Part shown: in pieces, positions 18,628-23,630 of the stretch | How positions within the stretch are numbered: the first letter of the stretch is position 1 | Layout: every line of letters begins with the position of its first letter | Assembly (NCBI GenBank): GCA_033344815.1 | Contig: JAWPMR010000001.1 | Span: 2,838,136-2,902,135, forward strand | Direction of reading: 5' to 3' | Origin: Paracoccaceae bacterium | GTDB lineage: Bacteria > Pseudomonadota > Alphaproteobacteria > Rhodobacterales > Rhodobacteraceae | DNA length: 64,000 nt | Position numbers and translations under genes: made by a program | The notes under the pieces: generated by a model | Database searches by the model: none | Told to the model about the DNA's origin: nothing | What the model saw: the letters and a program-made list of their open reading frames with translations, nothing else

Positions 18628-18978
18628 TCAAGACTGGCTTTGCGGCGTCTTTGTCGTTTCAAGCAAAGCAACAATTTCCGAACAGTTCTCGATTTTTCCT
18701 CCACAACAATCTGCGATCAAGAATTGGACAAGGGCGTTCACACTGGCAAGATTTGCCGCGTAGTGGATTTCACGTTGGTGGCGGGTCGCCTGAAGCACAC
18801 CTGCGCGTTTCAGAATGGATAGATGGCCGGAAAGCGTTGATGGTTTCGTTCCCAGCTGCCTTGAGATTTCTAAGGCTGGCAAGCCTTTGGGGCCAATCCT
18901 GACCAGCAGCCGGAAAGTCTCCAGCCTTGTGGGCTGCGCGAGTGCCGCAAATGCATCGATGGCATTGGATTGATCCAT
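18628..18978 (-). CDS. arsR: ArsR-family metalloregulator
   Basis: A 116-residue winged-helix repressor (LAQPTRLETFRLLVR; KPSTLSGHLSILKRAGVL) with a C-terminal cysteine cluster DCCGGKIENC (C91, C92, C99). This layout resembles the As(III)-binding triad of some ArsR proteins near the C-terminus. A TTCGG-N6-CCGAA operator lies three bases upstream of its ATG, and a second copy lies before the divergent operon, so it should repress both. The inducer is predicted to be arsenite or a trivalent organoarsenical; this is inferred from the cysteines and from arsH and the aquaporin in the operon. Confidence 0.9.
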   Translation of the reverse strand: MDQSNAIDAFAALAQPTRLETFRLLVRIGPKGLPALEISRQLGTKPSTLSGHLSILKRAGVLQATRHQREIHYAANLASVNALVQFLIADCCGGKIENCSEIVALLETTKTPQSQS

Positions 18979-18980
18979 AC

Positions 18981-18996
18981 TTCGGTATTGCCCGAA
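18981..18996. promoter_or_regulatory. ArsR operator 1 (TTCGG-N6-CCGAA)
   Basis: TTCGG-TATTGC-CCGAA, followed by ATGAC, directly upstream of arsR. It matches operator 2 at 19049-19064 in arm sequence and spacing, and the two sites face opposite ways. Confidence 0.75.
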
Positions 18997-19048
18997 ATGA
19001 CGAACCTTGACAAGTGAATGTGTCTGGCCTCACCTAGCCAAGCGACAT

Positions 19049-19064
19049 TTCGGCTTTTGCCGAA
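19049..19064. promoter_or_regulatory. ArsR operator 2 (TTCGG-N6-CCGAA)
   Basis: TTCGG-CTTTTG-CCGAA, 21 bp before the TTG start of the deacylase gene. On the minus strand the match to operator 1 extends into the flank (CCGAAATG). Confidence 0.75.
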
Positions 19065-20105: not shown

Positions 20106-21082
20106 GCCTGCACCCTGTCACGCTTGACGACATTCGGGAGGCACAAACCGCGCTGGCGAATGTTGTCGTTCGAACACCCCTGCTTGAGAACGCAGATGTG
20201 AACGCCATGTTGGCCGGGCGCGTTTTGCTCAAGGCAGAGAATTTCCAGCGCACAGGCGCCTTCAAAATACGTGGCGCTTATTATCGGATATTGAATCTGA
20301 CACCTGATGAACGGGCTTGCGGGGTGGTGAGCTATTCGTCGGGAAACCACGCACTTGGTCTGGCGCAAGCGGCGGCCATGCTGGGCACTTCTGCCGTTAT
20401 CGTCATGCCCTCTGATGTGCCTGCGGCCAAGATGGCAGCGACACGCGATCTGGGTGCACAGATTGTCACCTTTGATCGTGATACGGAAAACAGCACCGAT
20501 GTGGTCGCCGGGATCATTCGGGAAACGGGCCGCATAGAAGTCCCGCCAAGCGCCCATGGTCAGGTCCTTGCCGGGGCTGGTACTGTGGCGTTGGAATTGC
20601 TGGAGGACGCTCCGGTTTTGGACGCTGTCCTGATCCCCTGTGGTGGGGGTGGTTTGACGGCCTCGACGGCTGTTGTCATGGCGCAGGGCGCACCGAAAAC
20701 GCAGGTTTATGCGGCGGAACCTGACCTGTTTGATGATACGCGCCGGTCTTTGATCTCCGGCAAGCGCATCGGCAATCCCGTGGGCCTGCGCACCATCTGC
20801 GACGCGATCATGACGCCGATCCCCAATGACGTGACCTTCCCGATCAACCTTGATTTACTCGCCGGCGGAGTGACTGCCAGCGACAAGGATGTCCGCACAG
20901 CGATGCGCTTTGCCTTTGACCATTTCAAGATTGTCACCGAACCGGGTGCGGTTGTTGGCCTTGCGGCGATCCTCAACGGACAGGTCGAGATCAAGAGCAA
21001 AACCGTGGCTACAGTCATTACCGGAGGCAATATCGACGCCGCGCGATTTGCATCACTCATAGGAGACAGCGATGACACTTGA
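20102..21082 (+). CDS. PLP-dependent threonine/serine dehydratase family protein (EutB-like)
   Basis: A 326-residue fold-type II PLP enzyme. Lys55 in TGAFKIRGA is the PLP lysine, SSGNHALGLA binds substrate, and GGGGL binds the phosphate. Relatives deaminate threonine, serine or hydroxyectoine-derived amino acids by beta-elimination. It is shorter than biosynthetic IlvA and lacks a regulatory domain, as expected for a catabolic enzyme. Its start overlaps the deacylase stop (ATGA) and its end overlaps the aquaporin start by 11 bp. The presence of deacylase plus dehydratase recalls ectoine breakdown, but the rest of the operon does not fit that. Confidence 0.85.
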   Translation: MSLHPVTLDDIREAQTALANVVVRTPLLENADVNAMLAGRVLLKAENFQRTGAFKIRGAYYRILNLTPDERACGVVSYSSGNHALGLAQAAAMLGTSAVIVMPSDVPAAKMAATRDLGAQIVTFDRDTENSTDVVAGIIRETGRIEVPPSAHGQVLAGAGTVALELLEDAPVLDAVLIPCGGGGLTASTAVVMAQGAPKTQVYAAEPDLFDDTRRSLISGKRIGNPVGLRTICDAIMTPIPNDVTFPINLDLLAGGVTASDKDVRTAMRFAFDHFKIVTEPGAVVGLAAILNGQVEIKSKTVATVITGGNIDAARFASLIGDSDDT

Positions 21083-21737
21083 ACGACGACTTGTGGCGGA
21101 ATGGTTGGGGACGTTTTCGCTTTTGGCTACCGTCATTGGTTCGGGCATCATGGCGGAGCGCTTGGCGGATGGAAACGTCGCGGTCGCACTGCTCGGCAAT
21201 ACAATTCCGACCGGTGCGATCCTTGTGGTGCTGATCACCATTTTCGGCCCCATTTCGGGCGCGCATTTCAATCCAGCGGTGACGCTCAGTTTTGCATTGC
21301 GAGGCGAGATCGAAAGGCGCGACGCTCTGCTTTACGCGGGTGCGCAGGTGTTTGGCGGGGTCATCGGCGTGCTGGCCGCGCATGTGATGTTCGAACATCC
21401 GCTGATCGACCCTTCCACCACCACACGAAGCGGCATCGGTCAGTGGGCGGGAGAGTTTGTCGCAACCTTTGGTCTGGTGGGCACGATCCTTGCCTGTATC
21501 AAGGCACGCCCGTCTGCGGTGCCGATGGCTGTCGGCCTCTATATCACCGCCGCCTATTGGTTCACCTCTTCCACATCCTTTGCAAACCCCGCCGTTACGA
21601 TTGCACGCGGGTTTTCGGACACTTTTGCCGGGATTGCGCCCGTCGATGTGGCGGCCTTTGTTGCCGTTCAGTTGGTCGCAGCGGTATTGGCGACATGGTT
21701 CTTTGGCTGGCTTCTACGCGAGGCAAAGGATGACTGA
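21072..21737 (+). CDS. aqpS: MIP-family aquaporin/aquaglyceroporin (AqpS-like)
   Basis: A 221-residue channel with two NPA motifs (residues 67-69 and 172-174) and six predicted helices. In Sinorhizobium meliloti AqpS sits in an ars operon with arsR and arsH and lets arsenite flow out of the cell. The combination with ArsR and ArsH here supports the same class of cargo (arsenite or methylarsenite). AGGAG lies six bases before the ATG. It overlaps genes on both sides. Confidence 0.88.
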   Translation: MTLERRLVAEWLGTFSLLATVIGSGIMAERLADGNVAVALLGNTIPTGAILVVLITIFGPISGAHFNPAVTLSFALRGEIERRDALLYAGAQVFGGVIGVLAAHVMFEHPLIDPSTTTRSGIGQWAGEFVATFGLVGTILACIKARPSAVPMAVGLYITAAYWFTSSTSFANPAVTIARGFSDTFAGIAPVDVAAFVAVQLVAAVLATWFFGWLLREAKDD

Positions 21738-22923
21738 GGAATTCGATTTTGATCAGGTCATCAACCGGCGTGACGTGCCCGCGCTGAAGGTCCACCGCAT
21801 GGTGCTGGGCGAAGACGGTATGGATCTGTTTCCAGCCGGTGTCGCAGATATGGACTTCCGCGCACCGCAGCCCGTTCTGGACGCGATGGCGCAGCGTTTG
21901 GCCCATGGAGTCTTTGGCTATGAGACTGTGCCGGATGGCCTGATGCCTGCATTCACTGGATGGATGAAGCACAGACATGGTTGGGACATTGATCCCGACC
22001 ACATTCTGCGCGCACCGAACGTGCTGAACAGCCTGTCAATGGCACTGAACCTCTATACCGAGCCAGGCGACGGTATCATCATCGAGCCGCCCGTGTTCTT
22101 TGACTTCGCTGATATCATTGTCGAGAACGGACGCCAGTTGGTTGAAAATCCGTTGGTCGTGCTGGGTGGCCGCTATCAAATGGACTTTGAGGGTCTAGAG
22201 GTCTGCGCTGCCGATCCCCGTACCAAAATGATGTTCCTATGCAATCCGCATAATCCGGTGGGACGGGTGTGGACCAAGGCGGAGCTTGCGCAAGTGGGCG
22301 CCATTTGCAGAAAGCATGGTGTGCTTGTCGTATCCGATGAAATCCACGGCGATATCACCTTTGCAGGTCACACCTACACGCCATTTGCCACTGTCTCTAA
22401 GGAAGATGCACAGAATTCCATCACCTGCCTGTCACCCGCCAAAAGCTTCAACATAGCGGCCTGCTGCGGCGCTTTCACGGTGGTGCCTTATGAGACGCGT
22501 AGGGAGGCCTTCAAAGCCGAGAACAGCCGACTGACGGTGAACAAGAACAACGCCTTTGCCAGCGTGGCGATGGGTGCAGCATACCAACACGGGGGCGCGT
22601 GGCTGGACGCTGCACTCGGCTACATCGAGGAAAATCTTTCCTTGGTGCGCGATCGCCTTGAAGTCATGCCGCACGTTTCCTTGATCGAACCCGAAGGCAC
22701 GTTCCTTGTGTGGCTGGACTTTCGCGACATGGGATTGGCGCAAGACGCGCTCACGCAATTTCTGCGCACCAAAGCCGGATGGGCCATCACCCGCGGTATA
22801 TCCTTTGGCACCAGCGGCGAAGGGTTCGGGCGTTTGAACATTGCATGCCCCCGCGCACAGCTTGTACGCGCGTTGGGCAAACTGGAACACGCGCTATCAA
22901 CACACCGAGGCATGACAAAATGA
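21730..22923 (+). CDS. PatB/MalY-type PLP C-S beta-lyase
   Basis: A 397-residue fold-type I aminotransferase-like enzyme with Lys238 in [12 protein letters not shown] as the PLP lysine, plus [11 protein letters not shown] and SDEIHGD motifs of the MalY/PatB group. These enzymes cleave cysteine S-conjugates or cystathionine to a thiol, pyruvate and ammonia. It overlaps the aquaporin gene by eight bases and arsH by four. Within an ArsR operon it could break down a cysteine- or thiol-linked conjugate; this is inference. Confidence 0.88.
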
Positions 22924-23630
22924 CCGACACACCCAACATCGAAGATGACCACTTTCGCCAGATCGACAGCGCGCGCCTTTTTTGCCCGGACACCGCAGAT
23001 CATCCGCCCCGCATCTTGCTGCTCTATGGATCATTGCGCAAACGATCCTTCAGCCGTTTGATGAGCGAAGAAGCGGCCCGCGTTTTGGTGCGTTTCGGGG
23101 CAGAAACCAAAACCTTCAACCCCAGCGGTTTGCCTTTGCATGATGACACCGTTGCAGACCACCACAAAGTTCAGGAACTACGCGACTTAGTGGCATGGAG
23201 CGAAGGCATGGTCTGGTGTTCGCCAGAACAACACGGTGCCATGACTGGCATCATGAAGTCTCAAATCGACTGGATCCCGCTCTCGCTTGGAGCTGTCCGG
23301 CCCACCCAAGGCAAGACGTTGGCAGTGATGCAGGTCAACGGTGGCTCGCAAAGCTTCAATGCCGTCAATCAACTGCGTATACTTGGCCGCTGGATGCGGC
23401 TTTTGACCATTCCCAACCAGTCTTCCACGCCCAAGGCCTTTCTGGAGTTTGACGACAATGACCGGATGAAGCCGTCGCCGAACTACGACCGGATGGTCGA
23501 TGTCATGGAAGAACTGGTCAAATTCACACTCCTGACCCGAGGGCGTGCTGAATTTCTTGTTGAACGGTATAGCGAGCGTAAAGAAACAGGTGAGGCCTTG
23601 ATCAATCGCGTGAACCAGACGGCACTCTGA
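22920..23630 (+). CDS. arsH: ArsH, NADPH-dependent FMN reductase / organoarsenical oxidase
   Basis: A 236-residue flavoprotein with the phosphate loop [11 protein letters not shown] (about 36-46) and the ArsH signature [24 protein letters not shown] region. Characterised ArsH proteins oxidise trivalent methyl or aromatic arsenicals to less toxic pentavalent forms using NADPH and FMN. Its ATG overlaps the lyase stop (ATGA). It is the last gene of the operon and the main reason, with ArsR and AqpS, to link the operon to arsenicals. No arsC, arsB/acr3 or arsM is in the window. Confidence 0.93.

Follow-up and report, generated by a model that had tools for sequence, protein, structure and literature searches.

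The closest described counterpart of the system analysed here is the AqpS-type ars operon of Sinorhizobium meliloti, in which an aquaglyceroporin takes the place of a pump under ArsR control and whose gene order we take to be arsR-aqpS-arsC-arsH. Published work links AqpS to arsenite and describes ArsH as a trivalent organoarsenical oxidase (PMC6205960), and for one Paracoccus ArsH a reduction of organo-As(V) has been reported (PMC9137774). In a survey of ars operons, MIP channels were the sole transporter in 18 of 18 cases (PMC4435449). Here we describe a related operon in a 64,000-nucleotide stretch (the window) of a Paracoccaceae bacterium genome, located on a single contig of 5.08 Mb (JAWPMR010000001.1). 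Like the S. meliloti operon it has ArsR control, an aquaglyceroporin instead of a pump, and ArsH; unlike it, the window operon has no arsC and carries a deacylase, a dehydratase and a PatB-type lyase. Judged from its sequence, it is most likely an As(III)-responsive AqpS-type ars operon that acquired an accessory enzyme module, with the deacylase and dehydratase placed ahead of aqpS and the lyase behind it.

Five genes run along the + strand from 19086 to 23630. They encode an AstE/AspA (M14) family N-acyl amino acid deacylase (19086..20105; TTG start with gggag upstream), assigned by family searches and alignment; a fold-type II pyridoxal phosphate (PLP) enzyme resembling hydroxy-amino-acid dehydratases and serine racemases (20102..21082), assigned by family and solved-structure matches; an AqpS-type aquaglyceroporin of the MIP family (21072..21737; PF00230, E 4.3e-23; 58.5% to an S. 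meliloti protein annotated AqpS); a PatB/MalY-family PLP lyase of an ars-associated clade (21730..22923); and ArsH, of the FMN/NADPH organoarsenical oxidoreductase family (22920..23630; TIGR02690, 391 bits against a cut-off of 292). Successive genes overlap by 4, 11, 8 and 4 bp, and both these overlaps and the six gene coordinates given in a preliminary description of the locus were confirmed. Among the equivalents in Ruegeria YS9, the first junction has no overlap and the last three overlap by 4, 8 and 4 bp. The channel is the only transporter that the operon encodes, together with arsH, so that the window follows the rule of the survey; so do two relatives in which ACR3 replaces the channel (L143 and L171; loci of relatives are cited by L numbers and genomes by G numbers). 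The sixth gene, arsR (18628..18978, - strand), is divergent from the five-gene run and encodes an ArsR/SmtB repressor of AfArsR type (NF033788, 55.2 bits, cut-off 55). Its closest solved relative is 6j05 (E 4.5e-14), with whose CC...C motif Cys91, Cys92 and Cys99 align. We take that motif to be the As(III) site of AfArsR, and equivalents of AfArsR C95, C96 and C102 are then all present. The reading of the five genes as one unit behind a predicted As(III)-type ArsR is supported.

The 107-bp gap between arsR and the deacylase gene contains two putative operator-like boxes, each a 16-bp palindrome: box 1, TTCGGTATTGCCCGAA (18981..18996), which recurs in related clusters, and box 2, TTCGGCTTTTGCCGAA (19049..19064), 68 bp from it. 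Between them lies TTGACA (19007..19012, + strand), a predicted -35-like promoter element. The pattern TTCG-N7-CCGAA occurs five times in the window, both strands counted, against 0.91 expected and a largest count of three in 100 shuffles; four of the five matches are the two palindromes of this gap, and the operator pair in the window exceeds chance. A genome-wide scan, run with a pattern one base too short, gave 18 matches against 16 in the reversed control, which is background only. We surveyed the upstream regions of 20 sources (the window and 19 loci, with L146 entered twice and L142, L144, L171, L159 and L160 left out). Two boxes, 64-68 bp apart, were found in eight (window, L154, L031, L032, L033, L145, L156 and L143), a single box in three (L141, L034 and L150) and no box by this pattern in nine (L035, L146, L147, L149, L152, L148, L151, L153 and L155). 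In Salipiger CCB-MM3 (L156) both boxes are kept and arsR is neither annotated nor matched within the 19-kb stretch. TTGACA is present in 10 of 12 gaps next to arsR or to where arsR once stood; it also occurs in the ars-free locus L147, and there is none in the ars-free loci L149 and L152.

The lyase scores 414 bits against TIGR04350 (curated cut-off 340), in agreement with the preliminary assignment to the PatB/MalY C-S lyase family. It is like characterised or solved members (TIGR04350; 6qp3, 4dgt, 1d2f, 1c7n) in family score and in the region of the PLP lysine, and unlike them in a signature private to its clade and in the clade's arsenic gene neighbourhood. The window protein carries the PLP lysine at Lys238, the pair Cys245-Cys246 seven and eight residues past it, and the motif PVFFDF. 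Among 21 clade members, the PLP lysine region reads SPAK.FN[IL]A[AGS]CC in 20, the remaining one (L153) having Cys-Ala, and PVFFDF and TVNKNN are each found in all 21. As controls we used the best-ranked family matches for which loci were taken (12 for the signature and 16 for linkage): housekeeping PatB proteins have CC at that place in 0 of 12, and a Tyr (PVY or PIY) for the first Phe in 12 of 12, a yardstick that lies outside the definition of TIGR04350. The Asn, Asp and Arg positions that we take to be catalytic in PatB alignments are kept along with the PLP lysine; together with the private signature, this makes the clade enzyme look active and different in specificity from housekeeping PatB. 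By comparison with related folds, the CC position may lie close to the PLP phosphate, so that the cysteine pair has no more than a possible part in binding arsenic. One clade copy, L147, may be broken, since its matched stretch meets a stop codon at residue four, with possible starts at least 16 codons downstream; its row ended at the stop in one alignment, and the stop was entered as X for the trees and the signature count.

Clade PatB repeatedly occurs beside arsenic genes. In a family sample of 394 genomes, about one per genus and counted here without regard to kinship, it occurs in 14 at 59-100% identity, the next-ranked listed matches reaching at most 39%, whereas PatB-family matches of any kind at E 1e-60 are found in 366 of the 394. 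Three genomes of a 385-genome class sample pass E 1e-120, namely the window's own and two from other families (67% and 62%), and three plasmid records (H5-H7) carry clade PatB at more than 60% identity. Flanks of about 1.5 kb contain an ars gene at 9 of the 14 clade PatB loci (8 of 13 with the window excluded), compared with 0 of 16 housekeeping PatB loci; the arsC, ACR3, arsD, arsA and arsB queries were drawn from these clusters, which slightly favours the clade, and the arsR, aqp and arsH queries came from the window. Across all 21 clade loci, to which L031 and L035 were added through the deacylase search, 12 adjoin an ars gene (window, L141, L154, L031, L142, L143, L144, L145, L146, L035, L150 and L151).

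The partners at these loci vary. The complete gene set is found in G027 (L141) and Ruegeria YS9 (L154), and Roseobacter MED193 (L031) has deacylase, aquaporin, PatB and ArsH together. A check on whether the extra genes are conserved with arsH elsewhere thus came out positively, deacylase, aquaporin, PatB and ArsH recurring together in L141, L154 and L031. G292 (L142) and G140 (L144) have the order aqp-patB-arsC-arsH, with an incomplete arsH in G292 and a stretch that stops inside the dehydratase, at the contig end, in L144. G078 (L146) and a Rhodobacteraceae metagenome-assembled genome (L035) have patB-arsD-arsA; G106 (L145) and G137 (L150) have clade patB with arsR and aqp; and in G211 (L151) arsB is convergent with patB. 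In G311 (L143), remnants of arsR, deacylase and dehydratase are followed by ACR3, a 535-aa in-frame ORF (8474-10081) that joins ArsC (PF03960, residues 5-112) to PatB (PF00155, 183-523), and arsH. Fusion of ArsC to an arsenic-detoxification partner has a parallel in the AqpS-ArsC protein of Salinispora tropica (PMC6205960), where the partner is the channel and not a PLP lyase. G086 (L171) has arsR, then deacylase-dehydratase-ACR3; patB and arsH survive there only as remnants, and a permease of PF03773 (ArsP_1) is encoded nearby. Since related operons carry arsC (L142, L143, L144 and L164), ACR3 or arsD-arsA, the absence of arsC from the window operon is a lineage feature. A few further neighbours were seen at one or two loci each: a 103-aa CMD-family protein encoded between the arsR and deacylase genes (L145 6102-6413), cysteine-synthase-like PALP proteins, a further kind of PLP enzyme near ars genes, beside arsR and aqp (L035 6616-7656 and L162 5098-6171), and EamA transporters next to the deacylase in L175 (6857-7777) and beside arsR in L150 (8241-9077). 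On a Rhodobacteraceae SC52 plasmid (L155 4302-8654), phnCDE-type transporter genes and the gene of a HAD hydrolase run divergently from an ars-free clade PatB.

The deacylase often accompanies this lyase. A search of genome contigs gave 590 confirmed matches, of which the best 80 were examined: five (L031-L035, 63-79% identity) belong to a whole or partial cluster with arsR, and in the stretches around the other 75 (at most 64% identity, some of the stretches short) nothing matches arsR, aqp or arsH of the window. The deacylase clade is present in 12 of the 394 family genomes, seven of which also have clade PatB (12 and 14 of 394; Fisher 9e-9, kinship ignored), and in all seven the two genes lie close together. 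The preliminary label of M14 deacylase is made more precise as AstE/AspA type, and identity with DoeB is ruled out by a score of 229 bits against TIGR02994 (cut-off 402.7) and by differing pocket residues. The motifs NHGDEYEG (NHG, VHG or THG), HSGG and N[LM]NR are kept in all aligned rows, and NHGDEYEG and [DF][LF]HSGG are shared with DoeB-type rows. The side-chain pocket and an insertion set the two apart: an Asp after HSGG.TL is found in 5 of 5 DoeB-type rows and 0 of 20 deacylase-clade rows (Asp or Glu fills this place in 2 of 8 other outgroup rows), and a GGG....ART insertion is present in 20 of 20 clade rows, whereas the DoeB-type rows, the remaining eight outgroup rows and L037-L039 lack it. 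The missing Asp argues against a cationic side chain of the diaminobutyrate type, and no more. The clade deacylase would share N-acyl amino acid chemistry with DoeB and with aminoacylase-3/aspartoacylase in M14 (aminoacylase-3 being compared by description only), and mammalian aminoacylase-3 deacetylates mercapturic acids according to a review (PMC11511702).

For the dehydratase, the earlier label 'EutB-like' is a poor one. It scores 190 bits against TIGR02991 (cut-off 413.35) and 211 bits against NF005680 (cut-off 413), and its best NCBIfam model is threo-3-hydroxy-L-aspartate ammonia-lyase PRK07048 (298 bits, also below the cut-off of 452). Of its 16 solved relatives at E 1e-30, seven bear the name serine racemase, with or without 'probable', and most others that of threonine dehydratase or deaminase; the best of them, 1v71, is a protein without an assigned name. 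By these comparisons the predicted enzyme is nearer to 3-hydroxyaspartate ammonia-lyase and serine racemase than to EutB. A part in anti-phage defence was considered for the deacylase, dehydratase and PatB and was rejected, none of the three having a match in PADLOC.

The simplest chemistry common to the three enzymes would be N-deacylation followed by alpha,beta-elimination of a beta-substituted alanine. In the mechanism that we propose, As(III) or a trivalent organoarsenical would release ArsR; the substrate would be a beta-substituted amino acid, most likely an S-substituted cysteine, whose N-acyl group the deacylase would take off to expose the alpha-amino group; PatB would then cleave the C-beta-S bond by PLP-dependent alpha,beta-elimination, giving a thiol or sulfide, pyruvate and ammonia; and the dehydratase would clear away a by-product or the hydroxy-amino-acid counterpart. 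Either leaving group, thiol or sulfide, may serve arsenic handling by binding As(III) or, where one is present, by feeding a thiol-dependent ArsC, which would make sense of the single ArsC-PatB ORF. ArsH would act on organoarsenicals and AqpS would let arsenite out. C-S is our best guess for the bond because the C-S lyase model was passed, because 11 of 19 solved PatB relatives at E 1e-20 are C-S lyases by name or, as with MalY and cystalysin, by known identity, and because the M14 relative acts on mercapturic acids. As a whole, a C-S substrate with a role in thiol supply is a tentative proposal that we place a little short of probable. The preliminary description had the same order of events, with deacylation preceding cleavage of the C-S or C-X bond of an arsenical conjugate; the order fits the families, and the conjugate may or may not contain arsenic, as deacylase-PatB pairs also occur apart from ars genes. 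Its last step, in which ArsH would oxidise the released arsenical and AqpS would let it out, stands beside the published link of AqpS to arsenite and the two published directions of ArsH chemistry.

Several observations weigh against this proposal. Nine of the 21 clade loci have no adjacent ars gene (L147, L148, L149, L152, L153, L155, L156, L159 and L160), and 5 of the 14 family loci have none nearby. Deacylase-PatB pairs without ars genes or boxes are found in L149, L152 and L147 (with the early stop in PatB; in this genome, G255, an ArsH above cut-off is encoded elsewhere), PatB without deacylase or ars genes in L148, L153, L155, L159 and L160, and deacylase without PatB in L172-L175, the L173 copy having an internal stop. 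Eight of the 19 solved PatB relatives are named aminotransferase or transferase. AqpS at 74% identity or more was found at 16 places in 14 family genomes, six with PatB and ten without it; six of those ten adjoin arsR, and G175 (L164) is a plain case of arsR followed by an aqp-arsC-arsH operon. A further 20 AqpS loci of lower identity (L176-L195, from the next-ranked places) have no match to the deacylase, dehydratase or clade PatB. The parts also come apart, MED193 having no dehydratase, G311 retaining remnants of deacylase and dehydratase, and G086 remnants of PatB and ArsH. Finally, the portions of the literature on arsenite, cysteine desulfhydrase and sulfide that were available to us yielded no such arsenic role, one paper concerning cadmium. 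As AqpS and arsR often occur without PatB, arsenic resistance does not need PatB, and the enzymes are accessory rather than core; the ars-free pairs indicate that the module is separable and that its substrate may contain no arsenic. An arsenic-induced, separable accessory lyase module accommodates these points, and we regard it as highly probable from the comparative sequence evidence.

The same ars-free pairs make a serious rival of the idea that a general mercapturate or S-conjugate salvage route, supplying C, N and S, was captured by an ars operon in which arsenic is only an inducer or co-stressor. The isolated PatB and deacylase genes listed above point the same way, as do the PatB and deacylase trees, in which ars-linked and ars-free members are mixed and deep branches are weak (the window, L141 and L031 group together, at 99/96 for PatB and 100/99 for the deacylase). 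Beside the operon, at 17897..18527 on the - strand, lie the remains of a small tyrosine recombinase gene split over two frames (71% and 75% identity to a Salipiger protein), and in L141 and L156 the same island is flanked by a one-frame homologue, which is consistent with transfer as an island; such shared mobility could inflate the linkage to ars genes. An ars linkage seen at 9 of 14 loci and at 0 of 16 control loci, to several different partners and with one fusion, is nevertheless hard to obtain by a single capture, and we consider capture of a salvage route unlikely.

A second and decidedly less probable rival would make clade PatB a PLP-dependent C-As lyase, acting after N-deacylation on an arsenical amino acid with As on the beta (or gamma) carbon. 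The leaving arsenic would keep the bond electrons and emerge as As(III), the Cys-Cys pair after the PLP lysine might hold it as acceptor, and exit would be by AqpS, ACR3, ArsA-driven export or ArsB; the ArsC-PatB fusion would then be a combined reductase-lyase. The private active site (CC 20/21, PVFFDF 21/21, TVNKNN 21/21; housekeeping CC 0/12) can be read in this way, as can the presence of PatB with AqpS, ACR3, ArsD-ArsA and ArsB, which could suit an As(III) source, and the deacylase pocket unlike that of DoeB (Asp 0/20 vs 5/5, with the insertion in 20/20). On the other side, the signature is also found in clade members without ars neighbours, the cysteines may be structural if they lie near the PLP phosphate, an Asp-less pocket fits many other substrates (with Asp or Glu in 2/8 of the other outgroup rows), and the nearest named PatB relatives are mostly C-S lyases. 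We know of no PLP-dependent C-As lyase and of no arsonoalanine-like compound from these habitats. The C-As lyase ArsI, which we take to be a vicinal-oxygen-chelate dioxygenase, is of another type; no operon protein matches such a family in Pfam or NCBIfam, the rest of the genome not having been searched for ArsI. Arsenical natural products have precedents: the arsenical amino acid arsinothricin exists (PMC6465285), and arsonopyruvate in the proposed bisenarsan route is a C-As natural product (PMC12159101). The former source also suggests that ars-operon genes of unknown function might resist unknown arsenic-containing natural products. It describes ArsN1, an arsinothricin N-acetyltransferase, which shows that ars operons can include an amino-acid-modifying enzyme on account of an arsenical amino acid; that enzyme acetylates, whereas the window enzyme would deacylate, and the two proteins are unrelated.

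Catabolism of ectoine or hydroxyectoine under an ArsR regulator, suggested by the distant relation of the deacylase to DoeB and by an M24 peptidase-like gene downstream (24679-25836), is rejected on scores and pocket residues and can hardly be correct: all scores fall below their cut-offs (DoeB 229/403, EutB 211/413, DoeA 94/575 bits), so that the earlier ectoine and EutB leads fail, the DoeB pocket residues are absent, the M24 and nitrilase genes do not accompany other clusters, and DoeB-like genes with an M24 neighbour sit elsewhere in relatives.

The rest of the genome bears on the claim that arsC, arsB/acr3 and arsM are missing, which is accurate for the operon. The genome as a whole has no match to ACR3 or ArsB and no ArsM above cut-off, and its single ArsH above cut-off is that of the operon. 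A second arsenic locus lies at about 4.595-4.598 Mb (L196 4132-7246), some 1.7 Mb from the operon, and encodes an ArsR-ArsC fusion (HTH and LMW-phosphatase domains; 79 bits against the pI258 arsC model, cut-off 174), an ArsJ-associated GAPDH (556 bits, cut-off 450) and ArsJ (535 bits, cut-off 400), so that arsenate can be handled outside the operon. A 105-aa ArsC-family protein at 1.891 Mb (L197) was set aside, since it looks Spx/YffB-type by eye. Just upstream of the operon, which has the putative thiol- or sulfide-releasing lyase, positions 13359-17722 of the window hold what looks like a sulfide/persulfide oxidation set: a metallo-beta-lactamase-fold protein, a fusion of a BLH-phosphatase domain with an FAD oxidoreductase, and a SulP-type permease. 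The oxidoreductase and permease are unmatched beside the other clusters. Downstream of arsH (23852-26633), a GntR-FCD regulator is divergent to the M24 peptidase-like gene (a distant DoeA relative) and a nitrilase-family gene; a functional link to these M24 and nitrilase genes was rejected, as they are not conserved beside other clusters.

Returning to the accessory lyase module, its central component is a PatB-type PLP lyase that lies beside aqpS, arsC, arsD-arsA or arsB, is once fused to ArsC behind ACR3, and often has a matching deacylase. Its recurrence with arsenic genes, together with the ArsC fusion, suggests that clade PatB is probably an unrecognised arsenic-related enzyme. No description of an ars-associated PatB-type lyase was found in the portions of the open-licence PMC literature available to us, which is weak evidence of novelty. 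Whatever the leaving group, the lyase would connect arsenic handling in marine Rhodobacterales with the metabolism of amino acids or thiols, and one lyase, one deacylase and one dehydratase make a small, testable set for the unassigned genes of ars operons.

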